Source of the DNA: Roseateles hydrophilus
GTDB taxonomy: Bacteria; Pseudomonadota; Gammaproteobacteria; Burkholderiales; Burkholderiaceae_C
Assembly: GCF_026712245.1 (NCBI RefSeq)
Contig: NZ_JAPPUY010000005.1
Span: forward strand, 62,001 to 126,000
DNA: 64,000 nt
Direction: 5' to 3'
The notes under the pieces were generated by a model. The model had not been told where the DNA came from, ran no database searches, and saw only the letters and a list, made by a program, of their open reading frames with translations. The translations under genes were made by a program, and so were the position numbers. Shown piece by piece: positions 26,002-44,742 of this stretch (position 1 is its first letter; each line of letters opens with the position of its first letter).

Positions 26002-26040
26002 GCGCCGCACAATGCGGCGCACGCCACCTCCGTGCCCGCC

Positions 26041-26706: not shown

Positions 26707-26825
26707 CGCCCCTCGTCCAAGGAATACCTTGGCCGGCCCCCCGAGGGGGCGGCGATGCTTGCGGCATCGAGCCGCAAGCACATCGCCTGCCGGGCCGGCT
26801 TGGGGGCGGCCCGGCGCTCGGCCCG
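26707..26825 (+). repeat. Four-hairpin interspersed element, copy A
   Basis: The element contains four successive hairpins: CCAAGG/CCTTGG (26717-26732), GCCCCC-CGA-GGGGGC (26736-26750), TGCTTGCGG/CCGCAAGCA (26756-26780) and GCCGGGCCG/CGGCCCGGC (26789-26815). It ends in GGCGCTCGGCCC. A second copy lies in the opposite orientation at 60043-60176. The stems differ between copies but mostly keep pairing, while linkers such as AAGCACATCGCC and GGCTTGGG are conserved. It occupies the gap between the response regulator and its kinase. Confidence 0.8.
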
Positions 26826-26841
26826 ATCAAGACACGACGCC

Positions 26842-28191: not shown

Positions 28192-29742
28192 TCAGGCCTG
28201 CAGCGGGGTCGCGGCCAGCTGGGCCACGCTGGCCTGGCGGTAGGGCGCGCAGAGCTGCTCCACGTAGGCCTGGTGCTGGGGCAGGGCGCCCACGATGCGC
28301 GCGACCTTGAGGTGGATGTCGCCCAGGAAGCGGGCCAGCTCCTCGCGGTTCATCTGGTCGGCCACCGGGTGGTAGCGCTGCGGCAGGATGCCCTGGCCCA
28401 TCATGACCTGCACCCAGGAGATCTCGGCGAACAGCTCGTCGCTGGGGCGGAACACGCGCGCTGTCTCGCGGAACAGGTCGATGCGGTGGCGCAGCGTGGG
28501 CAGGATGTCCATCTCGCGCACGTGCTGCCACAGCGCGGAGTCGGTGCGCTCGTTGACGTGGTAGTGCAGCACGATGAAGTCGCGGATGTGCTCCAGCTCG
28601 CGCTTGGACTGGCGGTTGAACTCGTCCACGTCCGACTGCTGGATGCCGCCGGCCGGGAACAGCTGCATGAGGCGGATGGCCGAACGCTGGATCAGGTGGA
28701 TGCTGGTGGACTCCAGCGGCTCGACGAAGCCGCTGGCCAGGCCCACGGCCACGCAGTTGCGTTCCCAGACCTTGTCGCGCTGGCCGGGCGTGAAGCGGAT
28801 GACGCGCGGCGTCGTCAGCAGCTCGCCCTCGACATTGCGCTTGAGTACCTCGGGCGCATCGGCGTCGCTGAGCTCCTTGCTGCTGTAGACCAGGCCATTG
28901 CCCACGCGGTGCTGCAGCGGGATGCGCCATTGCCAGCCGAAGGGGTGGGCGATGGAGCGGGTGTAGGGCCAGGCCTCGCGCACCGACGCGGTCTGCACGG
29001 CCACCGCGCGGTCGCAGGGCAGCCAGTAGGACCAGTCCTCGTAGCCCACGCCCAGCGCCTCGCCCAGCAGCAGCGAGCGAAAGCCCGTGCAGTCGATGAA
29101 GAAGTCGCCGTCGATGCGGCTGCCGTCGTCCATCTGCAGCGCCGCGATGTCGCCCGCGCGGGCGGCGCCGGCATCGGCCTCGTGCTTGAGCACGCGGGCG
29201 ATCTTGCCCTCGATGCGCTGCACGCCGTGGCCCTCGCTCATCGCGCGCAGGAACTTGGCGTAGCGCCCGGCGTCCAGGTGGTAGGCGTAGTTCAGGCCGT
29301 TGCGCGGCAGGTGGGCGAAGCGGTTGGCGAAGGCGGCCACCGTCTCGGGGTTGTAGTCGGTGTAGGTCTTGGACAGGCCCTCGGCCAGCCCCTTGAGCCA
29401 GAAGTGCTGGAAGCCGGCACTCCAGTGGTCGTTGCCGGTCGCGCCGAAGGAGTGGAAGTAGTCCTGGCCGATGTTCTTCCAGCCCTCGAAGTTGATGCCG
29501 AGCTTGAAGGTCGCGTTGGTCGCGGCCATGAACTCGGCTTCGTTGATGCCCAGCAGGTTGTGGAAGGTGTGCAGCGCGGGGATGGTGGCCTCGCCGACGC
29601 CGACGGTGCCGATCTCCTCGGACTCGACGAGCTTGATGTCCAGCTGCTTGCCCAGCAGCTTGCTCATGAGCGCGGCCATCATCCAGCCGGCGGTGCCGCC
29701 GCCGGCGATGACGACGCGGTTGAAGGGCTTGGTGGTGTTCAT
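28192..29742 (-). CDS. FAD-dependent (tryptophan-type) halogenase 1
   Basis: This is a 516-residue flavin-dependent halogenase-family protein. It has the FAD site VVIAGGGTAGWMMAAL, the GVGEATIP loop, the halogenase Lys (Lys80 in ATFKLGINF) and the diagnostic WxWxIP motif (Trp270-Trp272-Ile274-Pro275). GLASGFVEPLESTSIHLI holds the candidate catalytic Glu. Characterised relatives chlorinate or brominate tryptophan or free indoles using reduced FAD. No indole biosynthetic or flavin reductase gene is nearby; instead it overlaps a cupin gene in a module behind a TonB receptor. The substrate is unknown. Confidence 0.9.
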   Translation of the reverse strand: MNTTKPFNRVVIAGGGTAGWMMAALMSKLLGKQLDIKLVESEEIGTVGVGEATIPALHTFHNLLGINEAEFMAATNATFKLGINFEGWKNIGQDYFHSFGATGNDHWSAGFQHFWLKGLAEGLSKTYTDYNPETVAAFANRFAHLPRNGLNYAYHLDAGRYAKFLRAMSEGHGVQRIEGKIARVLKHEADAGAARAGDIAALQMDDGSRIDGDFFIDCTGFRSLLLGEALGVGYEDWSYWLPCDRAVAVQTASVREAWPYTRSIAHPFGWQWRIPLQHRVGNGLVYSSKELSDADAPEVLKRNVEGELLTTPRVIRFTPGQRDKVWERNCVAVGLASGFVEPLESTSIHLIQRSAIRLMQLFPAGGIQQSDVDEFNRQSKRELEHIRDFIVLHYHVNERTDSALWQHVREMDILPTLRHRIDLFRETARVFRPSDELFAEISWVQVMMGQGILPQRYHPVADQMNREELARFLGDIHLKVARIVGALPQHQAYVEQLCAPYRQASVAQLAATPLQA

Positions 29743-30755
29743 CGTTTCAGCTGGTTGAGGAGTTGGGTGCGGGCCTGGCGGGACAGGGTCTCGTCGATGG
29801 GCCCGAGCAGGCCGCGCGCGGCGGGGGGGATGTGGTCCCAGGTGTGCGCGTCGGCGCCGAACACGAAGTGCTGGAAGTGGTGCTGCCAGATGCGGCGCTC
29901 CTTCTCCGGCAGGTCGCGCAGCGTCATCAGCGCCAGGCGCAGCGTGGTCAGCGGGGAGTCCACGTGTTCGGGCGTCTGGCGCCACCAGGCGTTGATGAGC
30001 AGGTTGACCGGCGCCAGGCCCTCGACGTGGTGGAACCACATGCTGGGGATGAACAGCGCGTCGCCCGGCTCCAGCTCGACGACTTCGGCCGCGGCCAGCG
30101 CCTGCGCGAAGCGCGGGAAGCGGGCGAAGTCGGGCTGGGCGAAGTCCACCAGGCTGACGGGCTGGCCGGCGGGCGTCGGGTCCAGCGGGCCGAGGTAGAG
30201 GTTGTGGATCTGCTCCGGCGGGAACAGCGTGAAGCGGCGCCGCCCGGCAGCCACGACGGCGAGGTTGTCGGGCAGGTCGTAGTGGGCGGCGATGCGGGTG
30301 CGGTTGCCCAGCCACAGGCTGATGAGCGCCTGATCGGCGAAGGGCTCACCCAGGCCCATGACGTTGGCGTCCAGGAAGCCCGGCAGCACGGCCTCCACCG
30401 TCGTGGAGCCGACGTACAGCGCCGGCGGCTCGGGGCTGTGCGCCACGCCCAGCAGGCCGGACAGCACCTGGTCCAGCGTGGCGGCGTAGCGCTCGAAGTT
30501 GAAGCTGCTGAGCGTTTCGTCGGCGTAGAACACGCGGCCACGCGCCTCGGGGGCGAGCTGGAACAGGCCGATGCGGGTGCCGTTGTACAGGCCTATCAGG
30601 TAGCGGGCCAGCGCCTCGTCGGACTGGCGCGCGGCCTGCACCACCGGCCAGTGTGCAAAGCCGCCGCGCACGACGCAGGGGCGCGCGGCCGTCAGCAGTT
30701 CGGCCGGCAGCGCGGCCGGGTCGAAGGGGCCGGTCCAGTCGGGGACAGCTCGCAT
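29739..30755 (-). CDS. Cupin-8/JmjC-like Fe(II), 2-oxoglutarate-dependent oxygenase
   Basis: This is a 338-residue protein of the cupin_8 (JmjC-like) family. The iron-binding facial triad is visible as His158-x-Asp160 in RIAAHYDLPDN and His242/His243 in PSMWFHHVEGL. RRRFTLFPPEQIHNLYLGP is the conserved segment between them. Family members hydroxylate protein or small-molecule substrates. The stop overlaps the halogenase 1 start (ATGA), so they are translated together. With two halogenases and SapC it suggests oxidative tailoring of a common substrate, which is inference. Confidence 0.88.
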   Translation of the reverse strand: MRAVPDWTGPFDPAALPAELLTAARPCVVRGGFAHWPVVQAARQSDEALARYLIGLYNGTRIGLFQLAPEARGRVFYADETLSSFNFERYAATLDQVLSGLLGVAHSPEPPALYVGSTTVEAVLPGFLDANVMGLGEPFADQALISLWLGNRTRIAAHYDLPDNLAVVAAGRRRFTLFPPEQIHNLYLGPLDPTPAGQPVSLVDFAQPDFARFPRFAQALAAAEVVELEPGDALFIPSMWFHHVEGLAPVNLLINAWWRQTPEHVDSPLTTLRLALMTLRDLPEKERRIWQHHFQHFVFGADAHTWDHIPPAARGLLGPIDETLSRQARTQLLNQLKR

Positions 30756-30780
30756 CGTCGGTGCCTCAGTGGCCGTCGAT

Positions 30781-31491
30781 TCAGCGCCGGGTGGCGCGGT
30801 TCAGCAGCACGGGCAGCTGCGCGAGCGACGCGATCTGCATGTAGGCGGGCAGCAGGTGGCCGTCGCGGGCCAGCGCTTCCAGCGCGGCACCGGGCAGCGC
30901 GGCGAGGCGCTCCTCGTGGATGGTGAACAGGCCCGACAGCCGGCCCTGCTGGCCGTCGGTGGTTTCGATGTCCATGACGAAGGGTTCCAGCAGCTGGTGG
31001 CGCGTCAGCGCCTCGATGAAGGCGGGCAGCTGCTGCGCCTGTGCGTGCAGCGCCTCCATCAGTTGCACGGCGTTGTCCAGGTAGTCGCTGAAGCCGCCGT
31101 GCGGCAGGAACAGCGCCATGCCGACCTCGCCCTCCTCGGGGCGCACGATGCGGGGGCTGTCCAGGTCGATGTGCAGCTTCAGCGTGCCTTCGCTGTCACG
31201 GCCGATCATGAAGGGGTCGCGCTGCAGCGCCATGGGCAGCGCGGGCGCGTCCCAGCCGGCGTCGGTGAGGAACAGGTTCTGGCCTTCCTCCAGGCCGAAC
31301 AGGGCCACCGGCTGGAAGCCGGCGTCGCCGTCGACGAGCTGGAACACGATGGGGAAGTGGGCCTGCAGCTGGCGGAATTCGGCCGGCAGGGCCAGGCAGT
31401 ACTGGCGCGCGTCGCCCAGGTGGGCGGCGCGCTCGGTGTGGACGCGCAGGTGGCGGTGGGTGACGTTGTCGAGCAGGGCAGGGCGGGTCAT
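30781..31491 (-). CDS. SapC family protein
   Basis: This is a 236-residue SapC-family protein with no signal peptide. It starts MTRPALLDNVTHRHLRVHTE. Family-typical segments are YCLALPAEFRQLQAHFPIVF, NLFLTDAGWDAPALPMALQRDPFMIG and the DLDSPRI block. SapC was named from a Campylobacter S-layer locus, but its function is not established; it commonly accompanies TonB receptors, halogenases and cupins. The start overlaps the halogenase 2 stop, placing it second in the four-gene module. Confidence 0.88.
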   Translation of the reverse strand: MTRPALLDNVTHRHLRVHTERAAHLGDARQYCLALPAEFRQLQAHFPIVFQLVDGDAGFQPVALFGLEEGQNLFLTDAGWDAPALPMALQRDPFMIGRDSEGTLKLHIDLDSPRIVRPEEGEVGMALFLPHGGFSDYLDNAVQLMEALHAQAQQLPAFIEALTRHQLLEPFVMDIETTDGQQGRLSGLFTIHEERLAALPGAALEALARDGHLLPAYMQIASLAQLPVLLNRATRR

Positions 31492-33041
31492 CGGGCGGGG
31501 CTCTGGGCGTGGAGGTGATCGATCAGGCTGCGGTGGCCGGGCAGGGCGGGGATGAAGCGGCGGGCCAGGCGGGCGGCTTCGTCAAAGCAGGCCTGCGCCG
31601 CCTGCAGTTTGTCGGCGGACGGCGGGCGGGTGTCAGGGCGAAAACCCATGCCGTACAGCACGTACTGGTAGCTGGCCGACGGGAAGACCTCGTCGTTGCG
31701 GCCGAAGTCGTGCCGGGCCGGTGCGCGCAGCCGCCACTGCGGCAGCAGTTCGCGCAGGCGCTCGGGCCAGGAGGCGGGGTCGCGGTGGGCGCGCCAGTAG
31801 TCGCTGTCGTCGCGCTGCGTGAGCGCGTAGTGCAGCTTCAGGAAGTCGATGACGCGGGCCCAGCGGTAGGCGAAGTCGTCGTTGTAGCGCCGCGCGACGG
31901 CGGGCAGCGTGGCGTGCGTCATGGGCAGCTCTTCGCACAGCCGCTGCACGGACAGCTCCACCAGCGCCAGCGCCGAGGCCTCCAGCGGCTCGATGAAGCC
32001 GCTGGACAGGCCGATGGCCACGCAGTTGCGCACCCAGAACTGCTGGCGGTAGCCAGGGTCGTAGCGGATGGGGCGCGGCACGGGGCGCTCGGCCGGGGCG
32101 CCGGTGGCGTCGAGGTAGGCCTGCAGCGCGGCCTGGGCTGCGTCCTCGCTGGCATGAGCGCGCGAGAACACGCAGCCCACGCCGCGGCGGTGCGGCAGGC
32201 CGATGTCCCACAGCCAGCCCTTGGCCCAGGCGGTGGCGATGGTGACCGGGGCCAGCGGCACATCCGGCGTGGCATAGGGCACCTGCACAGCCAGGGCGGC
32301 GTCGTTGAACAGCACCTCGCGTTCGCTCTTCAGCGCCACGCCGAAGTGCTGGCCGATCAGCCGGGCCTGCAGGCCGGAGCAGTCGATGAAGAGGTCGGCG
32401 TCGAGGTCGCCGTGGGTGCGCGTGCGCAGCGCCGCGATGTCGCCGGCACGCGGGCCGCTGTCGTGCGAGAGCACGGCGTCCACATGGTCCACCACGTGGC
32501 GCACGCCCAGCCGCTGCACGGCATGCTCGCGCAGCAGCTGGCCGAACAGGCCGGCGTCGAAGTGGTAGGCGTAGTTGGCAACGGCGCCGAAGGCCGGCGT
32601 CTGCACCTGCTTGGGCGCGCGGCCGGCCTCGCACACCTGCACGCTGGGGCTGACGACGTCGGCGAACGGCCGCTGCGGCTGCAGCGCCAGCCAGGCCTGC
32701 ACCAGCTCGGCGTCTCCATGGCCCACGGGCAGCATGAAGGGGTGGTAGTAGCGGTCACCGGCCTCGCCGGCCGCGCCGCGGGCCCAGCCGTCGAAGCGCG
32801 AGCCCTGCTTGAAGCTGACCTGGCAGCGGCGGATGAACTCGGTCTCGTCCAGCCCGATGCGGCGCAGCGTGTCGCGCATGGACGGCCAGGTGCCTTCACC
32901 CACGCCGATGGTGGGCACGTCGCTGGACTCCACCAGCGTGATGCGAAGGGTGTCGCCATGTTCGGCAGCCAGCAGCCCGGCCACCAGCCAGCCCGCCGAG
33001 CCGCCGCCCAGCACGACGATGTTGCGAAGGGGTTCGTTCAT
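31488..33041 (-). CDS. FAD-dependent (tryptophan-type) halogenase 2, variant WxWxI motif
   Basis: This is a 517-residue paralogue of halogenase 1. It has FAD motif VVLGGGSAGWLVAGLLA, GVGEGTWP, Lys78 in VSFKQGSRF, and IGLSSGFIEPLEASALAL. The usual WxWxIP reads Trp276-Leu-Trp278-Asp-Ile280-Gly281, with Pro replaced by Gly, so its chemistry may differ. It is the first gene of the module, about 230 nt downstream of the TonB receptor and after an internal terminator. A half-site of the local LacI operator (CGCTTTCA, 33055-33062) lies just upstream of its start. Confidence 0.88.
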   Translation of the reverse strand: MNEPLRNIVVLGGGSAGWLVAGLLAAEHGDTLRITLVESSDVPTIGVGEGTWPSMRDTLRRIGLDETEFIRRCQVSFKQGSRFDGWARGAAGEAGDRYYHPFMLPVGHGDAELVQAWLALQPQRPFADVVSPSVQVCEAGRAPKQVQTPAFGAVANYAYHFDAGLFGQLLREHAVQRLGVRHVVDHVDAVLSHDSGPRAGDIAALRTRTHGDLDADLFIDCSGLQARLIGQHFGVALKSEREVLFNDAALAVQVPYATPDVPLAPVTIATAWAKGWLWDIGLPHRRGVGCVFSRAHASEDAAQAALQAYLDATGAPAERPVPRPIRYDPGYRQQFWVRNCVAIGLSSGFIEPLEASALALVELSVQRLCEELPMTHATLPAVARRYNDDFAYRWARVIDFLKLHYALTQRDDSDYWRAHRDPASWPERLRELLPQWRLRAPARHDFGRNDEVFPSASYQYVLYGMGFRPDTRPPSADKLQAAQACFDEAARLARRFIPALPGHRSLIDHLHAQSPAR

Positions 33042-33111
33042 GGCGCGTATTTGACGCTTTCACTCTCGCGGGCCGGGTGCAGCACCGACCCTGGTGAGAC
33101 GAGGGGCAAAC

Positions 33112-33134
33112 AAAAAAAGCCGCTCGCGCGGCTT
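33112..33134 (-). terminator. Rho-independent terminator after the TonB receptor gene
   Basis: AAGCCGC and GCGGCTT form a 7-bp stem around a four-base loop, followed on the leftward strand by a run of seven T residues. It lies 138 nt beyond the receptor stop and 70 nt before halogenase 2. It should end, or partly end, the receptor transcript, leaving lower or separate expression of the halogenase module. Confidence 0.75.
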
Positions 33135-33271
33135 CGCCACATGGCGAACAAGAGCGGCGCCCCAGGAGGCGAGCGCCGCCGAACCAGACGGTGTCTCGTA
33201 GGGGCCGGGCGCATGCGCCTGCCCCTGGAGGGTCTGCCCGGAGCCGGCTGAGCCGGCCCCGGGGTTCACGC

Positions 33272-36200
33272 TCAGAACTTGTAGCGCGCGCCGATCATCA
33301 CGCGGCGACCCAGCTGGGTCACGGCGCCGATCTGGTTCTCGTTGCGCAGGTGGGTGCGCGTGTACTCGTCGGTCAGGTTGATGGCTTCAAACTGGAAGCG
33401 CAGGTGCTTGTTGAAGTTGTAGCCCACGCTGAGGTCGAACTGGCCATAGGGCTCCACATACAGCGGCTGGGCGCCTTCCGAACCGCCGAAGTTGGCGGCC
33501 AGGAACTTGCCGCGCCAGTTGTAGGCCAGACGCGTCGTGAAGGTCTCGTTCTCGAAGAAGCCGACCAGGTTGCCCGAATCCCCCAGGCCCACCAGCACGT
33601 CGGTCTGGGCGCCCACCTTGGCGTTGTTGTAGCCCAGGTTGGACTTGACCTTGGTGAAGTTCGCCGACACGCCGAAGCCGCTGTTGCCGAACACGTGCTG
33701 CGCGTTCAGCTCGATGCCGTTGAGCTTGCTGGTGCGCTTGTTGTTGACGAAGGTGCCCAGCTTGAACATCAGCAGCGGATCGGTGGCTTGCGCGGTGATG
33801 CTGCCCAGCTGCGTGTTGGGCGTGCCGCTCACGCCCGGGGCGTTGCCGTACTTGGTGAAGATGTACTGGCGGATGCACCCGGAGTCGGCGCCGCAGCCGC
33901 CGGTGGTCTGTGCTTCCTTGTACATCGCGCTGCCGATGGGCGTGCGCAGGCCGAACAGGTTGGTCTCGGCAATGATGGCTTCGTTGTAGTCCTTCAGCGA
34001 CTTGCGGAAATAGCTGGCCGCGATGTAGCTGCTCTTGGCGTAGTAGTGCTCGGCCGAGAAGTCGATGTTGGTGGACTTCAGCGGCTTCAGGTCGGGGTTG
34101 CCCACCGAGCCGGAGCCACCGTCCACGCGGGCCAGCGGATCGATCTTCAAACCGCCTTGGATGGCGTTCCAGCCCGGGCGGCCGATGGTCGTGCCGAAGC
34201 TGGCGCGCAGCTTGGTGTCGCTGGTGACGTCGGCGCTGAAGTCGATGGAGGGCAGGAAGTAGCCGTACTTGCCGTCACGGCCGGCGGAGCGTGTGCCGCT
34301 GAAGGTGATGGGCACTTCGTTGTTGGCCACCCAGGCCACGGACACCGGGATCTTCTCGACCGACGGCGAGCTGACCTTGGTGCGCTCGTAGCGGGCGCCG
34401 ATGGAAGCGTCCATGGGCACGCCCCAGTCCCAGCTCAGGTTGTACTGGCCGAACACGGCCTGCGACTTTTCCGTCGTGCGGAAGTCGTCCTGCCAGTCGA
34501 ACGAGGCCTTCAGCAGCGTGTCGGAGCCCAACGTCTTGATGGCCGCGGCGCGCAGGTCCTCGAAGTTGAAATAGAAGAACTGGTTGAACAGCCGCGGGTC
34601 ATTGGAGCCCGGGATGCGGCTGAAGTACTTGCTGATGGAGTCAGCCTTCCAGATGTTGTCCGGCAGGGCAGCCGGGCCGCCGGCAGCGTTCGCGCCCCAG
34701 GTGTCGCGCTGCACGTTGGCAAAGGCCGAGCGGTTCTGCACTTCGGTCAGCGTCAGGCCGAAGTCCAGGCTGCTGGCGTCGTCGATGCGCCAGTTGCCGC
34801 GGGTCTGCAGCTGCGTGACTTCGTTCTTCTGGTAGCTGTTGCCGAACACCGAGCCCTGCAGCTCCTGCTTGGCGGGGTCCAGCGTCGTGCCCTTGATGCC
34901 CAGCACCGGGAACTTGTTGCTGAAGTCGACGAAGGTGTCGCCCCGGTTCATCGAGGCGGTGCCCAGCGTGACGGCGGTGCCCAGCGGGTCGTTGGCGCCC
35001 GAGGTGGCGGTGGAGTGGTGGGCGTCGATGTCGAAGTTCAGCGCATCGGTGGCCTTCCACTTCAGGTTCAGGCCGATCTGCTGGTTCTTGTTCTTGGTCT
35101 GGATGCGCGAGGCGCCCATGGCCAGGTCGGCGTTGCCCGCCGGGATGCTCTCGCCATAGATGATGGGCGAGGACGGCGTGCCGGTCTGGAACTCGCCGAA
35201 CTGGCCGCCGTAGTTGAACCAGGCCGAGATGTCGTTGCGGCGCTGGCGGAACTTCTGCTCGGACATCACGAAGTCCAGCGTGCCCACCAGGTCTTGCATG
35301 GGCTTGAACTGCAGCACCAGCTGGCCGTTCAGGCGCTCACGGTGCACGCCGGTGAACGAGTAGTTCATGTTCTGCGGCACGCTGTAGATCGAGCCGGCAG
35401 CCGGGCGGTTCTTGATGGTGCCTCCCGAGGCCGGCGGCAGGCCGCCCCAGACGGCGTTGGGGCCGTTCCAGTCGTTGTCCTTGATGCCGTCGAAGCTCTT
35501 CCAGCCGCTGCTGACGTTGGCCTGCGAGTAGCCGGAGTCGCGCACCTGGTAGGTACCCATCAGCGCGATGCCGAACATGCCGTCATTGCTCTGCGTGCTG
35601 TAGATGCCGCTGAGTTCGGGCGTCAGCTTCTTGCCCTGCTCCTCGCCGGGCAGGCGGCGGGCCGACTGGTCATTGACCAGCTTGACGCCGAACTGGGCCA
35701 CGGTTTCCTTGATGTCGAACGGGCGCTGCGTGCGCACGTTGACGGTGGCGCCCATGCCGCCGGTGGGGCTGCTGGCGCGGCTGGTCTTGTAGACCTCCAG
35801 CGCGGCGACGCCGTCGGCTGCGAGGTTGGAGAAGTCGAAGGAGCGCGAGCTGGGCGCGCCGCCGTCCACGCTGGAGCCGGGCATCTGGCGGCCGTTGAGC
35901 AGCACCAGGTTGAAGTCCGGGCCCATGCCGCGCACGGTGATGCGCGTGCCTTCGCCGTTGCTGCGGTCGATGGAGACGCCGGAGATGCGGCTCAGCGACT
36001 CGGCGAGGTTGGTGTCGGGGAACTTGCCGATGTCCTCGGCGACGATGCCGTCAACCAGGCCGGATGCCTGGCGCTTGAGGTTGACCGAGGTCTCCAGCGA
36101 GCGGCGGATGCCGGTGACGACGACAGTCTCCAGCTGCGTGGTGCTGGCCAGCGCCTGCGGCACGGACGTGCTGGGCGTGGGGCCGGCGTTCGGCACCTGG

Positions 36201-36283
36201 GCCTGCGCGGCCACGCCGACGAAAAGCAGGCCGCTGGCAGCGGCCAGGCGCGAAAGGCGAAGAGCGGGGCGGGGCTGTCTCAT
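33272..36283 (-). CDS. TonB-dependent receptor (Xanthomonas/Caulobacter carbohydrate type)
   Basis: This is a 1003-residue outer-membrane receptor. A signal peptide (about 1-29) is followed by a TonB-box-like ETVVVTG near residue 50, a plug domain (about 55-170, SRISGVSIDRSNGEGTRI and NVRTQRPFDIK), and a 22-strand barrel ending in the aromatic IGARYKF. It fits the TonB-Xanth-Caul family often linked to glycan uptake. The ATG at 36283 has GGAG upstream. Two LacI-type operators at 36332 and 36358 and a third at 36536 control it. It probably imports beta-glucan oligosaccharides released by the GH16 enzymes. Confidence 0.93.
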   Translation of the reverse strand: MRQPRPALRLSRLAAASGLLFVGVAAQAQVPNAGPTPSTSVPQALASTTQLETVVVTGIRRSLETSVNLKRQASGLVDGIVAEDIGKFPDTNLAESLSRISGVSIDRSNGEGTRITVRGMGPDFNLVLLNGRQMPGSSVDGGAPSSRSFDFSNLAADGVAALEVYKTSRASSPTGGMGATVNVRTQRPFDIKETVAQFGVKLVNDQSARRLPGEEQGKKLTPELSGIYSTQSNDGMFGIALMGTYQVRDSGYSQANVSSGWKSFDGIKDNDWNGPNAVWGGLPPASGGTIKNRPAAGSIYSVPQNMNYSFTGVHRERLNGQLVLQFKPMQDLVGTLDFVMSEQKFRQRRNDISAWFNYGGQFGEFQTGTPSSPIIYGESIPAGNADLAMGASRIQTKNKNQQIGLNLKWKATDALNFDIDAHHSTATSGANDPLGTAVTLGTASMNRGDTFVDFSNKFPVLGIKGTTLDPAKQELQGSVFGNSYQKNEVTQLQTRGNWRIDDASSLDFGLTLTEVQNRSAFANVQRDTWGANAAGGPAALPDNIWKADSISKYFSRIPGSNDPRLFNQFFYFNFEDLRAAAIKTLGSDTLLKASFDWQDDFRTTEKSQAVFGQYNLSWDWGVPMDASIGARYERTKVSSPSVEKIPVSVAWVANNEVPITFSGTRSAGRDGKYGYFLPSIDFSADVTSDTKLRASFGTTIGRPGWNAIQGGLKIDPLARVDGGSGSVGNPDLKPLKSTNIDFSAEHYYAKSSYIAASYFRKSLKDYNEAIIAETNLFGLRTPIGSAMYKEAQTTGGCGADSGCIRQYIFTKYGNAPGVSGTPNTQLGSITAQATDPLLMFKLGTFVNNKRTSKLNGIELNAQHVFGNSGFGVSANFTKVKSNLGYNNAKVGAQTDVLVGLGDSGNLVGFFENETFTTRLAYNWRGKFLAANFGGSEGAQPLYVEPYGQFDLSVGYNFNKHLRFQFEAINLTDEYTRTHLRNENQIGAVTQLGRRVMIGARYKF

Positions 36284-36331: not shown

Positions 36332-36345
36332 TGAAAGCGCTTTCA
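36332..36345. promoter_or_regulatory. LacI-type operator 1 (TonB receptor)
   Basis: TGAAAGCGCTTTCA is a perfect 14-bp palindrome with the central CG pair usual for LacI-family operators. It lies 49 nt upstream of the receptor start, where bound repressor would block the promoter or its transcript. The same 14-mer occurs at 36536, 39276 and 39450. Confidence 0.85.
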
Positions 36346-36357
36346 ACATTACTTGAT

Positions 36358-36371
36358 TGGCAGCGCTTTCA
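36358..36371. promoter_or_regulatory. Imperfect LacI-type operator 2 (TonB receptor)
   Basis: TGGCAGCGCTTTCA keeps an intact right half (GCGCTTTCA) and matches the perfect operator at 12 of 14 positions. It lies 26 bp (centre to centre) from operator 1, about 2.5 helical turns, so both may be bound together. Confidence 0.55.
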
Positions 36372-36535: not shown

Positions 36536-36549
36536 TGAAAGCGCTTTCA
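36536..36549. promoter_or_regulatory. LacI-type operator 3
   Basis: This is the perfect TGAAAGCGCTTTCA palindrome, extending to 18 bp (TCTGAAAGCGCTTTCAGA, 36534-36551). It lies 204 bp from operator 1 and 80 nt beyond the stop of the LacI gene. The distance would allow a repression loop over the receptor promoter. Confidence 0.8.
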
Positions 36550-36629: not shown

Positions 36630-37679
36630 TCAGCGCGGCAGGCGCCGCGTGCTTTCGCGCACGATGAGTTCGGGGCCCGGCGGGCGGGCGTCGGGCTTGT
36701 CACCGCGCAGCATGGCCAGCATGGCCGTGGCGGCCTCGGTGCCGATCTCGTAGACCGACTGCCGCACGGTGGTCAGCGGCGGCATGGTGTAGCGGGCCAT
36801 GATGACGTCGTCGAAGCCCACCATGGAGACGTCGTCCGGCACACGCAGGTTGCGCCGGTGCAGCGCGAGGCGGGCGCCCATGGCCATTTCGTCGTTGGAC
36901 AGGAACAGCGCCGTGAACGACACCTGGCGCTCCAGCAGCCGGCTGACGGCCAGCATGCCGCCTGCGGCGGTGAAGTCGCTTTGCACGATGAGCTCGGGGT
37001 CGGCGCCCAGGCCGGCAGCGGCCATGGCGTCGAGGTAGCCGGCCTGGCGCTCGACCGCGTCGTCGTGCAGCAGGTCACCGGCCACGAAGGCGATGCGTCG
37101 GTGGCCCTGCTCGATCAGATGTTGCGTGGCCAGGCGGGCGCCGAGGCGGTTATCGAAGCCGAAGCTGTACAGCTTCGGCCCCTGCAGCTGGCGCCCCACC
37201 ACCACGGTCGGCAGGCCGCCGGCCAGGCTGACGAGCTGCTCGTCGGGCAGGCGGCCGGCCAGCACGATGATGCCGTCCACGCGGCGCGACAGCAGCGCCT
37301 CGATGGCTTTGCGCTCGTCGTCCTCGTGCCAGTTGCCAGATACGAACAGCGGCACGTAGCCGGCCCGCTCCAGCTCGCGCTCGATGCCCAGCAGCGCCTC
37401 GCCGTAGAAGGGGCTGGAGATGATCTGCGTGACGACGCCGATGGACATCGTGCGCCCGCCCGCCAGGCCGCGCGCCACCGGGTTGGGCCGGAAGCCCAGC
37501 TCGCGAATGGCGGCCTGCACGGCTTCTTTCTTGGCCTCACTGACCGAGGCCGTGCCGTTGAGGATGCGCGACACCGTGCTGGGCGACACGCCGGCCAGTT
37601 CGGCCACTTGTTCCAGCGTGACCGCCCCATCGGGGCGGCTTGAAGGCGCTTTCTTGGCGGGGGGCGTCTTGTTGTTCAT
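36630..37679 (-). CDS. LacI-family transcriptional regulator of the beta-glucan locus
   Basis: This is a 349-residue LacI-family regulator. The helix-turn-helix VTLEQVAELAGVSPSTVSRI lies at about 20-40, followed by the hinge helix (NPVARGLAGG) and a periplasmic-binding-type sensor domain (MSIGVVTQIISSPFYGEALL through VGFDDVIMARYTMPPLTTVRQ). A basic, Pro-rich 18-residue extension precedes the HTH. It lies between the TonB receptor and GH16 genes, and perfect palindromic sites occur upstream of the receptor, the GH16 gene and the ABC operon, so it is the likely local regulator. The inducer may be a gluco-oligosaccharide. Confidence 0.93.
   Translation of the reverse strand: MNNKTPPAKKAPSSRPDGAVTLEQVAELAGVSPSTVSRILNGTASVSEAKKEAVQAAIRELGFRPNPVARGLAGGRTMSIGVVTQIISSPFYGEALLGIERELERAGYVPLFVSGNWHEDDERKAIEALLSRRVDGIIVLAGRLPDEQLVSLAGGLPTVVVGRQLQGPKLYSFGFDNRLGARLATQHLIEQGHRRIAFVAGDLLHDDAVERQAGYLDAMAAAGLGADPELIVQSDFTAAGGMLAVSRLLERQVSFTALFLSNDEMAMGARLALHRRNLRVPDDVSMVGFDDVIMARYTMPPLTTVRQSVYEIGTEAATAMLAMLRGDKPDARPPGPELIVRESTRRLPR
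37641..37654. promoter_or_regulatory. Operator-like site within the LacI coding start
   Basis: TGAAGGCGCTTTCT matches the operator at 12 of 14 positions. It lies 26-39 nt inside the regulator's own reading frame. It could be an autorepression site acting as a roadblock, or a chance match to codons in a Lys/Ala-rich N-terminus. Confidence 0.35.
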
Positions 37680-37802: not shown

Positions 37803-39224
37803 TTACAGCTTGGTGAACCGGATCCAGTTCAGGTTCCAGCCGCCGCGCGGTGCGAACAGGCCGACGTTGTAGGTGCCGGCATTGATGTTCACGGTGTGGG
37901 AGATGGTGGTCCAGTTCTGCCAGCCGCCGGTGTTGGGCACGGCCAGCTGGCCCAGCGCCACGCTGCCGGCGTTCAGGTCCAGCGACAGCGTGCCGCCGCC
38001 CGGGCTGGCCACGCGGTACTCCACGCGGTAGGCACCGCTGCTGGGGAAGGTGATGCCGTTGTAGGCCATCCAGTCGTTGGCGTCGATCCAGCCCACGTTC
38101 TGCCCGCCTTCGCTGCAGGTCTCCAACTGCACGCCGGCCTGCGCGTTGAAGGCCTCGGCCTCGATCTGGCGCGTCCAGGCCGGGCTGGCCTTGGACACGA
38201 TGACCGAGGTGGCGCGGTCGTTGAAGCCCTGGTCCACGAGGCAGCCGCTGTCGGCGCTGCGGGTGACGCTGGCGCCGCTGAAGTTGTCGCCGTCGAACAG
38301 CTGCACCTGGTAGCCGGCATTCACGCGCAGCGAGGACAGGTCGTTGTCGGTGATGCCGCGGGCCTGCAGCTGCGCGCGGGTGTAGCTGCCTTCGGGCAGC
38401 GCAGCCGCGTAGCCGCCGTAGTTGCAGTGCTGGAAGACGGTGGCCACACCGCCAGAGGCCGGTGCGTACACGCGCACGTAGTCCACGTGCATCTTGGCCG
38501 GCAGCGCGGCGGTGTTGACGTTGAAGCCCGGCCAGTTGCCGCCGATGGCGAAGTTCAGCAGCAGGAAGAAGTCGTTGTGGAACTCGCTGGTGCCATTGAC
38601 GCCGTTGGCGATGCTGGCCTCGTGGTACTTCACGCCATCCACGTACCAGCGGATGGCGCTGGCGTCCCACTCGACGGCGTAGACATGCCAGTCGGTCACC
38701 GTGGTGGCGAGGTTGCCGCTGTACTGCGCGTACTGGTTGGTGTGGTCCTGCCAGTGGATGGTGCCGTAGACCTTCTGCTCGTCGTTGATCTTCTCCATCA
38801 CGTCGATCTCGCCCGACGCCGGCCAGCCCACCTGCGGCAGGTTGGCGCCCAGCATCCAGAACGCTGGCCACGCGCCGAGGAAGCTGGGCAGCTTCATGCG
38901 CGCCTCGATGCGGCCGTACTTGAAGGTCTTGAGGCCTTGCGTCTTCAGTCGCGCCGAGGTGTAGGCCATGCCGCCGAAGTTCTCGCGCCGCGCGGTGATG
39001 ACGAGCGCGTTGTTCTCGATCGTTGCGTTCTCGCGCCGGTAGTACTGCAGCTCGTTGTTGCCCCAGCCATTCGTGCCGGTGCCGGTCTCGAACACCCAGC
39101 TCGGGCCGATGCTGCCGTTGAACTCATCGCTCCACACCAGCTGCCATTGCGCGTGGGCCAGGCCCGTCGTGGCGCTCAGCAGGCCCACCAGGGCGGGTCG
39201 GATCAGGGATCTCAGCCAATTCAT
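37803..39224 (-). CDS. Secreted GH16 beta-glucanase with beta/gamma-crystallin and CBM6 domains
   Basis: This is a 473-residue secreted enzyme. The order is: signal peptide 1-25 (cleavage near AHAQ); a GH16 laminarinase-like domain about 26-255 with the catalytic ExDxxE (Glu139-Ile-Asp141-Val-Met-Glu144) and AWPAFWMLG; a beta/gamma-crystallin-like module about 262-345 (VFQHCNYGGYAAALPEGSYT, LFDGDNFSGASVTRS); and a CBM6-like module about 352-473 (AEAFNAQAGVQLETCSEGGQ, IDANDWMAY). It should cut beta-1,3- or mixed-linkage glucan outside the cell. GGAG precedes the ATG. An operator lies 52 nt upstream. Confidence 0.92.
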   Translation of the reverse strand: MNWLRSLIRPALVGLLSATTGLAHAQWQLVWSDEFNGSIGPSWVFETGTGTNGWGNNELQYYRRENATIENNALVITARRENFGGMAYTSARLKTQGLKTFKYGRIEARMKLPSFLGAWPAFWMLGANLPQVGWPASGEIDVMEKINDEQKVYGTIHWQDHTNQYAQYSGNLATTVTDWHVYAVEWDASAIRWYVDGVKYHEASIANGVNGTSEFHNDFFLLLNFAIGGNWPGFNVNTAALPAKMHVDYVRVYAPASGGVATVFQHCNYGGYAAALPEGSYTRAQLQARGITDNDLSSLRVNAGYQVQLFDGDNFSGASVTRSADSGCLVDQGFNDRATSVIVSKASPAWTRQIEAEAFNAQAGVQLETCSEGGQNVGWIDANDWMAYNGITFPSSGAYRVEYRVASPGGGTLSLDLNAGSVALGQLAVPNTGGWQNWTTISHTVNINAGTYNVGLFAPRGGWNLNWIRFTKL

Positions 39225-39275: not shown

Positions 39276-39289
39276 TGAAAGCGCTTTCA
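39276..39289. promoter_or_regulatory. LacI-type operator 4 (GH16 gene)
   Basis: This is the perfect TGAAAGCGCTTTCA palindrome, 52 nt upstream of the leftward GH16 gene, the same placement as operator 1 before the TonB receptor. It is 174 bp from operator 5 across the divergent intergenic region. Confidence 0.85.
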
Positions 39290-39449: not shown

Positions 39450-39463
39450 TGAAAGCGCTTTCA
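39450..39463. promoter_or_regulatory. LacI-type operator 5 (ABC transporter operon)
   Basis: A perfect palindrome, TTGAAAGCGCTTTCAA with its flanks (39449-39464), ends five nt before the ATG at 39469. Here a bound repressor would cover the ribosome-binding region of the DNA and act after the promoter. An alternative ATG at 39439 would place it inside the coding region. Confidence 0.8.
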
Positions 39464-39468
39464 AAACC

Positions 39469-40749
39469 ATGTCTGCATCCCACGCCTTCTCTCGTCGCCA
39501 CCTGCTGGCCGCCTCGTTGGGCGGTGCGGTGGGGGGCGTGGCCGGCCCGGTGTCGGCGGCCGGCTCGCGGCCGCTGACGGTGGCCGCCTTCCCGCTGGTG
39601 GACGTCATCGCCAAGGACGTGCTCAAGGGCTGGGCGCAGACCCGCCCGGACGTGCGCGTCGAGGTCATGAGCCGCCAGTACGACGACCACCACACCGCCA
39701 TGACGACGGCGCTGTCTACCTCCGGCCACCTGCCGGATGTCATCGCGCTGGAGACCAGCTACCTGGGCCGCTTTTCGCTGGGCACGGGGCTGGAGGATCT
39801 GTCCGCGCCGGCCTTCGGGGCCGAGCGCTTCAAGGATCGCTTCGTCAGCTTCGCCATCGACACCGCGCGCAACCGCGACGGCCGCCTCGTCGCCATGCCG
39901 ACCGACATCGGCCCGGGCTCGCTGTTCTACCGCGTCGATCTGCTGGCCCAGGCGGGCCTGAAGGAGGCCGACCTGACGCACTCGTGGGAGAGCTACGTGG
40001 CGGCCGGCGCGCAGCTCAAGGCCCGCACGGGCGCCTACCTGATCGGCGATGTGCGCCTGCTCAAGGACATGGTGGTGCGGGCCGGCACGCCTGCGGGCGA
40101 GGGCCAGTACTTCGATCGCCAGGGCCGTGCCCAGGTCACGTCGCCGCGCTTCGTGCGCGCGTTCGAGCTGGCCCGCCAGGTGCGCCAGCAGGGCCTGGAT
40201 GCGCGCGTGGAGGTGTGGTTCAACGACTGGGCCGAGATGCTCAAGCGCGGCCGTCTGGCCACCGAGATGTCGGGCTGCTGGATGGCCGGCCAGATGGCCA
40301 ACTGGGTGGCGCCCGGCACGGCCGGCAAGTGGCGCGTGGCGCAGCTGCCCGAGAACACCTTCTGCGCGTACGGCGGCACCTACTACGCCATCCCGCGCCG
40401 CTCGGCACCCGAGAAGAAGCAGCTCGCCTGGCAGCTCATCCAGGAGCTGACGCTGGACCGCCAGCGCCAGCTCGACGCCTTCCGCTCGCAGGATGCCTTC
40501 CCCGCGCTGCTGGCCGCGCAGGACGACGCCTTCTTCGACCAGCCCGTGCCCTTCCTCGGCGGTCAGCCCGCGCGCGTGCTGTGGCGCGAGGCGGCACGGC
40601 GCATCCCGGTCATGAAGATGCACAAGCAGCACAAGTTCGCCGAGGAGGTGGTCAACGCCGAACTCGACAACGTGCTGGAGTACGGCAAGCCGATCGCGAA
40701 GGCGCTGGCCGACGCGCAGGCGCTGCTGGTTCACAGGGCCAACCGATGA
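39469..40749 (+). CDS. ABC transporter sugar-binding protein, Tat-exported
   Basis: This is a 426-residue extracellular solute-binding protein of the carbohydrate (SBP_bac_1/MalE-like) kind. A twin-arginine signal (FSRRHLLAASLGGAVGG) precedes the binding fold; YDDHHTAMTTALSTSGHLPD, AMPTDIGPGSLFYRVDLL and EMSGCWMAGQMANW are typical segments. It has no lipobox. It starts the rightward operon SBP, two permeases, GH1, GH16 and shares an ATGA overlap with the first permease. The operator immediately upstream puts it under LacI control. The likely ligand is a gluco-oligosaccharide. Confidence 0.92.
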   Translation: MSASHAFSRRHLLAASLGGAVGGVAGPVSAAGSRPLTVAAFPLVDVIAKDVLKGWAQTRPDVRVEVMSRQYDDHHTAMTTALSTSGHLPDVIALETSYLGRFSLGTGLEDLSAPAFGAERFKDRFVSFAIDTARNRDGRLVAMPTDIGPGSLFYRVDLLAQAGLKEADLTHSWESYVAAGAQLKARTGAYLIGDVRLLKDMVVRAGTPAGEGQYFDRQGRAQVTSPRFVRAFELARQVRQQGLDARVEVWFNDWAEMLKRGRLATEMSGCWMAGQMANWVAPGTAGKWRVAQLPENTFCAYGGTYYAIPRRSAPEKKQLAWQLIQELTLDRQRQLDAFRSQDAFPALLAAQDDAFFDQPVPFLGGQPARVLWREAARRIPVMKMHKQHKFAEEVVNAELDNVLEYGKPIAKALADAQALLVHRANR

Positions 40750-42466: not shown

Positions 42467-43798
42467 ATGAATTCTCTGCACCGCCAGTTCCCGCCCGATT
42501 TCGTCTGGGGCGTCGCCACCAGCAGCTTCCAGATCGAGGGCGCCGCCACCGAGGGCGGCAAGGGTGAGTCCATCTGGGACCGCTTCTGCCGCCAGCCCGG
42601 CGCCATTGCCGATGCCAGCAACGGCGATGTGGCCTGCGACCACTTCCACCGCCTCGACGAAGACCTCGACCTGATCGCGTCGCTGGGCGTCAACGCCTAC
42701 CGCTTCTCCGTCGCCTGGCCGCGCGTGCAGGCCGACGGCCACGGCGCGTTCAACCCCCAGGGCCTGGACTTCTACGAGCGCCTCGTCGACGGGCTGAAGG
42801 CGCGCGGCATCCAGCCCTGGTTGACGCTCAACCACTGGGACCTGCCCCAGGGCCTGCAGGACCGTGGCGGCTGGTTCGACCGCGACACCGTGCACCGCTT
42901 CGTCGACTACGCCCGCCACGTGCAGGCGCGCCTGGGCGACCGCCTCGCCGGCCTCACCACGCACAACGAGCCCTGGGTCATCGCCACGCTGGGCCACGAC
43001 AAGGGCATCTTCGCGCCCGGCATCCAGAGCCGCCGCGTGGCCGCCCAGGTGTCGCACCACCTGCTGCTCAGCCACGGCCTGGCGCTGCAGGCGCTGCGGG
43101 CTGATGGTGCGCGCAGCGAACTGGGCATCGTGCTCAACCTGTCGTCCACCGTGCCGGCCACGGCCATGCCGGCCGATATCGCCGCGGCGAAGCTGGCCGA
43201 CGGCCATGGCCGCCGCTGGTACACCGACCCGCTGTTCAAGGGCAGCTACCCCGAGGACGCGCTCGCCGACCTCGGCGCGGACGCGCCGGTGGTGCAGGCC
43301 GGCGACATGGGCGTCATCGCCCAACCCATGGACTATCTGGGCGTCAACAACTACACCCGCTCCGTCATTGCCGCCAGCGGCGAGGACTGGAACGCCAAGG
43401 GCCGCGGCCTGCCCGTGTCCGACATGGACTGGGAGATCTACCCCCAGGGCCTGACCGACCTGCTGGTGCAGCTCAAGCACGACTATGCGCGCCTGCCCAA
43501 GGTCTACATCACCGAGAACGGCGGCGCCTTCCCCGACGCCGGCCTCGTGAACGGCCGCGTGCAGGATGACGACCGCATCGACTACCTGCGCACCCACATC
43601 GCCGCTGTCGCCAGCGCCCTGCAGCAGGGCGTGCCCATGGCCGGCTACATGGTCTGGAGCCTGCTCGACAACTTCGAATGGGCCAGCGGCTACCTCAAGC
43701 GCTTCGGCATCGTGCACGTGGACTACGACACCCAGGTGCGCACACCCAAGGCCAGCGCCGAGTGGTACCGCGAGTTCCTGCGCCAGTGGCGCGGCTGA
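42467..43798 (+). CDS. GH1 beta-glucosidase (cytoplasmic)
   Basis: This is a 443-residue family 1 glycosidase without a signal peptide. The acid/base is Glu167 in LTTHNEPWVIA and the nucleophile Glu350 in VYITENGGAF. The N-terminal FVWGVATSSFQIEGA and the C-terminal MVWSLLDNFEWASGYLKRFG segments are diagnostic. It should split cellobiose- or laminaribiose-type beta-glucosides to glucose after import. It is the fourth gene of the LacI-controlled ABC operon. The exact linkage preference cannot be read from sequence. Confidence 0.96.
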   Translation: MNSLHRQFPPDFVWGVATSSFQIEGAATEGGKGESIWDRFCRQPGAIADASNGDVACDHFHRLDEDLDLIASLGVNAYRFSVAWPRVQADGHGAFNPQGLDFYERLVDGLKARGIQPWLTLNHWDLPQGLQDRGGWFDRDTVHRFVDYARHVQARLGDRLAGLTTHNEPWVIATLGHDKGIFAPGIQSRRVAAQVSHHLLLSHGLALQALRADGARSELGIVLNLSSTVPATAMPADIAAAKLADGHGRRWYTDPLFKGSYPEDALADLGADAPVVQAGDMGVIAQPMDYLGVNNYTRSVIAASGEDWNAKGRGLPVSDMDWEIYPQGLTDLLVQLKHDYARLPKVYITENGGAFPDAGLVNGRVQDDDRIDYLRTHIAAVASALQQGVPMAGYMVWSLLDNFEWASGYLKRFGIVHVDYDTQVRTPKASAEWYREFLRQWRG

Positions 43799-43833
43799 TT
43801 TCCGACAACAACGACCCTGGAGACAAGCACCCC

Positions 43834-44742
43834 ATGCCCACGATCAACCGCGTGACGCGCCCCTGGCGCAGCGTCCTGTCTGCGGCCGCCATCGCCCTGA
43901 CCGCCTGCGGCGGCGGCGGTGGATCGGCCACTGCCGCCACCCCGGCGGCCACGCCCGCCACCCCCACCACACCCGCGCCGTCCAACAACTGGACGCTGGT
44001 GTGGAGTGACGAGTTCGACGACGCCGCCGGCACCGTGCCCAAGGCCGCGCACTGGAACTACGACCTCGGCAACGCCGAGAACAACGGCTGGGGCAACCGC
44101 GAGTACCAGTACTACACCAAGGACGCCCGCAACGCCCAGACCGACGGCAACGGCATGCTGGTCATCACCGCCGAGCGCGCCACCAACCCCGGCCCCTGCT
44201 GGAACGGCAAGCCCTGCGAATTCACGTCGGCCCGCATCCACACCAACAACAAGGTCAGCTTCACCTACGGCAAGGTCGAGGCCCGCATGAAGCTGCCCAC
44301 CGGCAAGGGCGTGTGGCCGGCCTTCTGGGCGCTGGGCACCGACATCGCCACCAACCCGTGGCCCAAGTCGGGCGAGATCGACATCATGGAGTTCGTGCCG
44401 CAGACGCCCAACTCGACCTACGGCACGCTGCACGGCCCCGGCTATTCGGGCGCGCAAGGCATCGGCAAGCCGGTCGACCTCGGCGCCCCGGTGGTCAACG
44501 ACTTCCACACCTACACCATCATCAAGCGGCCCAACGAGATCGTCTGGTACGTCGATGGCAAGGAGTTCCACCGCCTGACGCCGGCCCAGCTGCCGGCCGG
44601 CGGCACCTGGGTGTTCGAGAAGCCCTTCTTCGTCATCCTGAACCTTGCCATCGGCGGCGACTGGCCCGGCGCGCCCGACGCCACCACGCCGGCCACGTCG
44701 CGCATGCTGGTCGACTGGGTGCGCATCTACAAAGAGAACTGA
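43834..44742 (+). CDS. GH16 beta-glucanase, lipoprotein
   Basis: This is a 302-residue lipoprotein enzyme. Its signal peptide ends in a lipobox (ALTAC followed by a Gly stretch), and a Thr/Pro/Ala-rich linker (about 30-50) leads to a single GH16 domain. The catalytic motif is Glu181-Ile-Asp183-Ile-Met-Glu186, with VWPAFWALGTDI and NGWGNREYQYYT as further family segments. It is anchored, probably on the outer membrane, and would trim oligomers near the TonB receptor. GGAG lies 12 nt before the ATG. Unlike the GH16 at 37.8 kb it has no extra binding modules. Confidence 0.94.
   Translation: MPTINRVTRPWRSVLSAAAIALTACGGGGGSATAATPAATPATPTTPAPSNNWTLVWSDEFDDAAGTVPKAAHWNYDLGNAENNGWGNREYQYYTKDARNAQTDGNGMLVITAERATNPGPCWNGKPCEFTSARIHTNNKVSFTYGKVEARMKLPTGKGVWPAFWALGTDIATNPWPKSGEIDIMEFVPQTPNSTYGTLHGPGYSGAQGIGKPVDLGAPVVNDFHTYTIIKRPNEIVWYVDGKEFHRLTPAQLPAGGTWVFEKPFFVILNLAIGGDWPGAPDATTPATSRMLVDWVRIYKEN

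Follow-up and report, generated by a model that had tools for sequence, protein, structure and literature searches.

A TonB-dependent receptor heads a five-gene cassette

The window analysed here is a 64,000-nucleotide (nt) stretch of Roseateles hydrophilus DNA, part of contig 9 of a 4.77-Mb genome. Its reverse strand carries a TonB-dependent receptor gene followed by genes for a flavin-dependent halogenase (HalA), a SapC-family protein, a Cupin_8 protein and a second halogenase (HalB), arranged as follows.

33272..36283, reverse strand: TonB-dependent receptor (TIGR01782), 1003 amino acids (aa), head of the cassette; identified by profiles and receptor fold
33116..33135, reverse strand: terminator-like hairpin and T run (coding strand), between receptor and HalA
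31488..33041, reverse strand: HalA, flavin-dependent halogenase resembling 2PYX, 9LTB and 9LU2, of the type that precedes SapC, WxWDIG motif; identified by profile and structure relatives
30781..31491, reverse strand: SapC-family protein (PF07277), 236 aa, confident model, without a solved fold match
29739..30755, reverse strand: Cupin_8 protein resembling Fe(II)/2-oxoglutarate (2OG) hydroxylases, FIH-related; HxD...H invariant in 8 aligned sequences
28192..29742, reverse strand: HalB, flavin-dependent halogenase of the same type as Xcc4156 and BrvH; carries WxWxIP, with Ser347 as the second halide-site residue

Profile scores confirmed the families that a preliminary description of this DNA had assigned to the receptor, both halogenases, SapC, the Cupin_8 protein and a LacI regulator. 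The receptor scored 595.8 bits against TIGR01782 (cut-off 310), matched PF07715 and PF00593 and has a predicted receptor fold; its start at 36283 is preferred because the longer frame (36349) overruns an operator. The halogenases matched PF04820 at 405.2 and 613.5 bits (cut-off 21), SapC matched PF07277 at 203 bits (cut-off 28.9) and the cupin matched PF13621 (Cupin_8) at 219.1 bits (cut-off 27.4). Against JmjC_2 (PF08007) the cupin reached 18.8 bits, under the cut-off of 22. The HalA and SapC genes overlap by 4 nt, as do the cupin and HalB genes, and a 25-nt gap separates SapC from the cupin; the overlap claimed for all four genes thus holds at the first and last junctions and fails at the middle one. 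The receptor gene ends 230 nt before the HalA start. A response regulator and histidine kinase pair (26032-28164) runs toward the cassette and stops 27 nt short of HalB.

The cassette recurs across bacteria

Cassette loci were gathered by a cupin-alignment scan of named species genomes, from which the best 80 of at least 587 confirmed stretches were taken; the counts are conditional on the cupin. With T for receptor, H for halogenase, S for SapC and C for cupin, the complete order receptor-HalA-SapC-cupin-HalB (THSCH) was found in 46 of the 80 loci. The remainder comprised 10 TSCH, 7 HSCH, 6 TC, 3 TSC, 3 with the cupin alone, 2 TCH, and one each of TSCHH, THSC and TSHC. A receptor heads 70 of the 80 loci; of the 10 without one, 7 (all HSCH) begin less than 1.8 kb from the locus end. 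The hosts include members of the Sphaerotilaceae, Oxalobacteraceae, Lysobacteraceae, Rhodanobacteraceae, Steroidobacteraceae, Cellvibrionaceae, Alteromonadaceae and Porticoccaceae.

Halogenases and SapC were also searched for in 200 evenly drawn Pseudomonadota genomes, halogenase counts there being lower bounds, with at most 7 candidates scored per genome. Among 32 regions fetched for a halogenase (L129-L160), a receptor was found in 28 by profile and in one more by Pfam (a divergent receptor, L149), and of 9 regions that had been fetched for SapC and contain a halogenase, 7 have a receptor too. Combined, 36 of the 41 sampled halogenase regions contain a receptor. The distribution is patchy: 10 of 100 genomes of the host family, the host included, carry a HalA relative at an E-value of 1e-100.

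Separate enzyme sets accompany separate receptors of one clade

A quick tree of 133 receptor rows placed all 87 receptors followed on the same strand by SapC or the cupin, together with two others, in a single 89-row clade (Shimodaira-Hasegawa-like approximate likelihood ratio test, SH-aLRT, 99); some long branches group elsewhere in this tree, and its deep order is unreliable. The 13 cassette-less TIGR01782 receptors of the host fall outside the clade, as do receptors accompanied by a halogenase only.

The host genome encodes 19 TIGR01782 receptors above the cut-off, 3 SapC genes and 10 full-length PF04820 halogenases distributed over 6 places; 9 of these halogenases cluster with a receptor. 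One of these places (C1:611-620 kb; L014) is a second full cassette of identical gene order, except that a DUF6445 gene precedes HalB. The two cassettes group with different loci for all five genes: the window set with L166-L170, the L014 set with L239, L209, L216 and L175. Among the matches listed, the closest receptor, SapC and cupin come from Pelomonas sp. Root1217 (L166), and the closest HalA and HalB from a Burkholderiales assembly (L167). Such separate grouping of the two sets is not expected if both served one shared diffusible metabolite, and two full sets without exchange of parts fit enzymes that are each matched to their own receptor or its ligand. Across 48 complete cassettes, the distance matrices of the five genes correlate at 0.79-0.90, as expected from co-inheritance alone. 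The link of the enzymes to the receptor drawn in the preliminary description is borne out by the recurrent cassette, its one receptor clade and the separate sets for separate receptors, and by these sequence comparisons the dedication of the cassette to its receptor is well supported.

Three further receptor-halogenase loci of the host (L013, L015 and L016) have receptors of other clades and no SapC. DUF6445 (PF20043) is a frequent extra gene in receptor-halogenase loci, with 20 found by profile, including those at L014, L013 and L016. By eye its HxD...H...R pattern resembles an Fe(II)/2OG oxygenase; two members were named by Pfam.

Predicted LacI-type operators are shared by the receptor and glucan genes

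The surroundings of the cassette contain a regulator, glycoside hydrolases, a sugar-import gene and predicted operators:

36332..36345: LacI-type operator, exact palindrome, before the receptor
36358..36371: LacI-type operator, 2 mismatches
36536..36549: LacI-type operator, exact palindrome
36630..37679, reverse strand: LacI-family regulator, by profile match
37803..39224, reverse strand: GH16 glucanase with CBM6, by family match
39276..39289: LacI-type operator, exact palindrome, between the GH16 and importer genes
39450..39463: LacI-type operator, exact palindrome, ahead of the sugar-binding protein gene
39469..40749, forward strand: ATP-binding cassette (ABC) sugar-binding protein, with its start reset to the ATG that follows the operator
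42467..43798, forward strand: GH1 family glycoside hydrolase
43828..44742, forward strand: second GH16 glucanase

Exact copies of the palindrome TGAAAGCGCTTTCA are located at 36332, 36536, 39276 and 39450; the copies at 36358 and 37641 have two mismatches. Seven matches with up to three mismatches were found in total, a number reached in none of 100 shuffles. The predicted operators occupy two places, one upstream of the receptor and the other in the space separating the divergent genes for the GH16 glucanase and the ABC sugar-binding protein; exact copies at both places uphold the earlier statement that receptor, glucanase and sugar-import genes have operators in common. In the wider family, 26 of 87 cassette loci have a site with up to two mismatches in the vicinity of the receptor start, compared with 43 of 1700 random 600-base windows from the same loci.

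Neighbouring genes of 91 loci were clustered, with codon-position GC used to pick frames and one representative per cluster named by Pfam, which named 10 of the 24 largest clusters. The largest were LacI (32), GH16 (27), GH3 (26), ABC ATPase (17), GH1 (17) and MFS (12); glucokinase, ROK, a DPPIV-type peptidase and DUF6445 were the others named. A beta-glucan setting is common in the family by gene content, though short of universal. By its predicted operators and families, the window locus has the make-up of a CUT (carbohydrate utilization) locus, with receptor, regulator, hydrolases and importer under common operators.

Two halogenase types occupy fixed positions

Halogenase type follows position in the cassette. 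Of 61 halogenases directly before SapC, 59 could be scored and all 59 are nearer to the window HalA than to HalB; among the 78 after the cupin, 75 of the 76 scored are nearer to HalB. Elsewhere, 56 of 62 scored halogenases are nearer to HalB and 6 to HalA. With the GxGxxG, catalytic Lys and catalytic Glu positions taken from PrnA, both catalytic residues are kept in 59/59 HalA and 76/76 HalB sequences, and in 56/62 elsewhere. A motif search found WxWxIP in 72 of 78 HalB sequences and in 0 of 61 of the HalA type, which has WxWDIG in its place; where HalB mostly has the Pro of this motif, HalA has Gly (57/59) or Ala (2/59). The residue beside the catalytic Glu is Ala in HalA and Ser in HalB. HalB carries Ser at the second halide-site position; section 13 of PMC7336383 describes the same for BrvH and two Xanthomonas brominases.

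The closest solved relatives of HalA are 2PYX, 9LTB and 9LU2 (510, 473 and 441 bits), and it has a weak, below-cut-off likeness to QhpG and LodB, which are flavin enzymes that mature proteins. HalB scores 672 bits against Xcc4156 (6Y1W) and 442 bits against BrvH (6FRL). The HalB of a Xanthomonas arboricola cassette reaches 1025 bits against 6Y1W and, by sequence, is evidently the Xcc4156 orthologue.

These comparisons bear on two alternatives to modification of the receptor. The enzymes might not halogenate in the cell at all, with flavin and Fe oxygenases instead hydroxylating or cross-linking side chains, or serving redox stress, and the halogenase motifs being inherited. The WxWDIG of HalA and its resemblance to QhpG and LodB would suit such a role. 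The invariant catalytic Lys and Glu speak against it, as does the in vitro bromination by the HalB orthologue Xcc4156 (PMC7336383), and we hold this explanation to be improbable.

The main rival is that the enzymes halogenate and hydroxylate a small aromatic compound, such as an aglycone or an indole-type molecule, that enters by way of the receptor or is a substituent of the glycan, in detoxification, tagging or salvage. Most PF04820 enzymes of known function use small molecules, and a separate ligand for each receptor type would also explain the separate enzyme sets. Relatives of these halogenases, as the preliminary description had stated, act on indoles in vitro, brominating them (PMC7336383). 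On the other side, the passages of PMC7336383 on Xcc4156 describe an open site without the Trp backbone-binding region, none of the 10 named neighbour clusters among the 24 largest is one of aromatic catabolism, and the cupin is nearest to protein hydroxylases. We regard a small-molecule substrate as rather unlikely.

The cupin resembles protein hydroxylases and SapC has a wider distribution

Compared with solved structures, the cupin profile matched FIH best (6e-28), followed by JMJD5, C2orf60 and JMJD7, with the HxD and H metal motif aligned; C2orf60 we take to be the tRNA enzyme TYW5. The nearest solved relatives of the cupin, judged by profile, are thus mainly protein hydroxylases. The metal triad H158, D160 and H242 is invariant in the 8 sequences aligned.

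SapC was present in 72 of the 200 random Pseudomonadota genomes. Eighty SapC regions were fetched, comprising the best of nearly every SapC genome and some second copies, and a profile scan found no receptor, halogenase or cupin in 70 of them. SapC in general is therefore not a receptor gene. Its model is compact and confident (mean predicted local distance difference test score, pLDDT, 95), and no signal peptide is apparent at the N-terminus, judged by eye only. A fold search of the PDB found no match (best E 0.087; 0 of 1000 chains at Z 2), and a sequence search found nothing below E 0.37. The preliminary description had read SapC as pointing to a surface protein; this reading derives from the family name and is not supported, given the occurrence of SapC in many genomes, the cassette-free regions and the lack of a signal peptide evident by eye.

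A cluster of PPIC-type isomerases, one member of which was named by Pfam, lies near SapC in 11 of 77 cassette-free loci (for example L074:8012-8944), a hint to the role of SapC that is suggestive at most. Elsewhere the SapC domain is N-terminal in longer proteins (L276:1031-2908, L277:5738-7588, L278:5534-7231, L279:5771-7462 and L280:6754-8394), which by eye have an apparent membrane segment and a long linker.

The receptor-HalA gap contains a terminator-like hairpin and no conserved precursor

Taken alone, the hairpin in the window is weak: a scan of the region finds 5 sites of this kind where 4.5 are expected, and in a 61-nt fold another structure is energetically favoured. The case for a terminator rests for this reason on comparison within the family. 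A custom detector found a hairpin with a T run after the receptor in 45 of 87 cassette loci, whereas 20 dinucleotide shuffles of the same segments gave a mean of 1.1 and a maximum of 3. After SapC or the cupin, in stretches that are mostly coding, the count was 5 of 158. Given a hairpin in this position, receptor and enzymes are probably expressed unequally. An abundant receptor with scarce enzymes is what this arrangement suggests; it would fit catalysis on the receptor, and other roles too.

Gaps between the receptor and the next gene have a median of about 100-125 nt and a maximum of 804. The 230-nt gap in the window contains chance frames of 58 and 69 aa. It resembles 2 of 46 other receptor-halogenase gaps, and does so alike in all three frames. 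A small precursor peptide in this gap was considered and rejected, the two frames being unconserved as proteins. No linked precursor of the kind used for ribosomally synthesized and post-translationally modified peptides was found in the receptor-HalA gap, to which the search was limited.

This result bears on a further alternative, in which the enzymes act on a ribosomal peptide or some other exported protein whose gene lies elsewhere, and the receptor has only regulation and niche in common with them. Ribosomal peptides are the substrates of the halogenases MibH and SrpI, in the case of MibH after a required proline hydroxylation (passages of PMC12615548), a dependence that parallels the hydroxylase-halogenase pair found here. 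A DPPIV-type peptidase cluster is present in 9 of the 91 loci, and one cluster of 6 loci resembles an ABC permease by eye. Against such a substrate, the receptor-HalA gap holds no conserved precursor, and each host would need to retain a peptide that is not linked to the cassette. We consider this explanation unlikely.

Conserved receptor residues

The receptor profile had no match at 1e-10 among solved-structure sequences, and the receptor model has a mean pLDDT of 84. In this model W355 and W651 end long strands, which we read as predicted extracellular tips. W355 is present in 99% of the clade; outside it, 73% of rows lack the position, and 17% of those with a residue there have this Trp. 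W651 is present in 91% of the clade, and its position is absent from 86% of the outside rows. N319 occurs in 100% of the clade and 2% outside.

Residues were said to track HalA or HalB at 85% or more in one group and 50% or less in the other; for the cupin the values were 90% and 35%. R602 and G671 weakly track HalA, and Q613, G671 and I808 weakly track HalB. D150, Y308, P433, D600, N655 and F840 passed for the cupin. N655 (94% of linked receptors, 2 of 7 cupin-less ones) was set aside as a cupin tracker: of the cupin-less receptors, that of L219 is truncated at the end of its locus, and most of the others are basal.

A candidate tailoring system for an outer-membrane receptor

Our preferred reading is that the cassette tailors one clade of glucan or oligosaccharide receptors, with the receptor polypeptide as the likeliest substrate; we give it a probability of about 0.4. 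Of the oxidative tailoring proposed in the preliminary description, the receptor link, the kept catalytic residues, the protein-hydroxylase-like cupin and the common glucan setting are supported, and the surface sign seen in SapC is not; its suggestion that the receptor itself is the target stands as the leading hypothesis, short of a finding. Section 13 of PMC7336383 reports that Xcc4156 has an open pocket, is inactive on free Trp and could possibly act on a peptide; according to the same source, BrvH too does not accept free Trp.

Under this reading, glucan breakdown products would relieve LacI repression and allow strong transcription of the receptor. A terminator past the receptor would let only part of the polymerases read through and so keep the enzymes at catalytic levels. 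HalB and HalA would act in the cytoplasm, ahead of export, and halogenate aromatic side chains of the receptor, with SapC perhaps acting as an adaptor of HalA or as a partner that presents the substrate, and the FIH-like protein would hydroxylate another receptor residue. The modified receptor would then be exported and inserted; the order of these steps and any effect on uptake are conjectural.

A broader proposal is offered tentatively, namely that private, co-inherited sets, each of two halogenases and an FIH-type hydroxylase, mature individual TonB-dependent receptors of the outer membrane. The modified sites would perhaps be conserved aromatic residues and Asn at the tips of extracellular hairpins (W355, W651, N655), and the modification perhaps tunes glycan capture or hides the receptor from phages and bacteriocins.

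Several observations weigh against a receptor substrate. No aromatic receptor residue tracks the presence of HalA or HalB, which, in these alignments, is a negative outcome for the simplest form of the idea. Trp is not enriched in linked compared with unlinked receptors (14.9 vs 14.7 per 1000). W355 and W651 are retained in receptors without an adjacent halogenase, an absence that does not prove absence from that genome, and both may be plain sugar binders. The association is also imperfect: three of the 80 cupin-selected loci (L181, L183 and L212) have a cupin without a head receptor despite upstream sequence, 5 of 41 sampled halogenase regions have no receptor, and one HalA-like halogenase of the host (G000:C6:363837-365216; L017) has none found within about 9 kb. 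A transketolase gene lies near this last halogenase. Because the receptors of L133, L138, L141 and L156, each with a divergent cupin-halogenase cluster adjoining, fall outside the clade, the cupin/halogenase link is not exclusive to it. The cassette has no flavin reductase gene, most flavin halogenases of known function use small molecules, and we know of no precedent for modification of an outer-membrane protein before export. Related enzymes, finally, accept free indole (PMC7336383).

Anti-phage defence was considered as a function for the enzymes and set aside, as none of the four had a PADLOC match.

The cassette ties the Xcc4156/BrvH branch and a separate HalA-SapC branch to one clade of sugar receptors. 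It also gives a concrete candidate substrate and so makes the native-substrate question testable. If the receptor is halogenated, protein maturation would gain a new type and SapC its first role; receptor function in phage and glycan work would then deserve another look.

Comparison with known systems

Halogenases adjoin TonB-dependent receptors of this sort in other Gram-negatives. The titles, abstract openings and passages of the open literature that were covered (including PMC8269204, PMC5945002, PMC10919026, PMC11340318 and PMC9775415) do not describe the cassette, though subscription papers may mention it, and a search of the open literature combining SapC, tryptophan halogenase and TonB-dependent gave 0 matches.

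By sequence, the window HalB is of the same type as the flavin-dependent brominases Xcc4156 (6Y1W) and BrvH (6FRL). Halogenases of this type have solved structures and in vitro activity, and their native substrates are reported as unknown in the relevant passages of PMC7336383. The papers on these two brominases treat single enzymes: "TonB" occurs 0 times in either main text, and "SapC", "cupin" and "receptor" 0 times each in that of BrvH. The closest solved relatives of HalA (2PYX, 9LTB and 9LU2) are entries named tryptophan halogenase only, and 2PYX is unpublished structural-genomics work as cited in PMC7336383. MibH and SrpI are flavin halogenases that act on peptide Trp, MibH in combination with hydroxylation (passages of PMC12615548); in the window locus no precursor was found. 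The CUT loci of Xanthomonas and Caulobacter combine a receptor, a regulator, glycoside hydrolases and an inner-membrane importer, as does the window. The main text of the CUT paper (PMC1790865) has 0 mentions of halogen-, SapC or cupin, whereas the window locus has all of these. FIH, JMJD5 and JMJD7, which match the cupin profile, are protein hydroxylases; the cupin of the window is bacterial and lies in an operon with a receptor.

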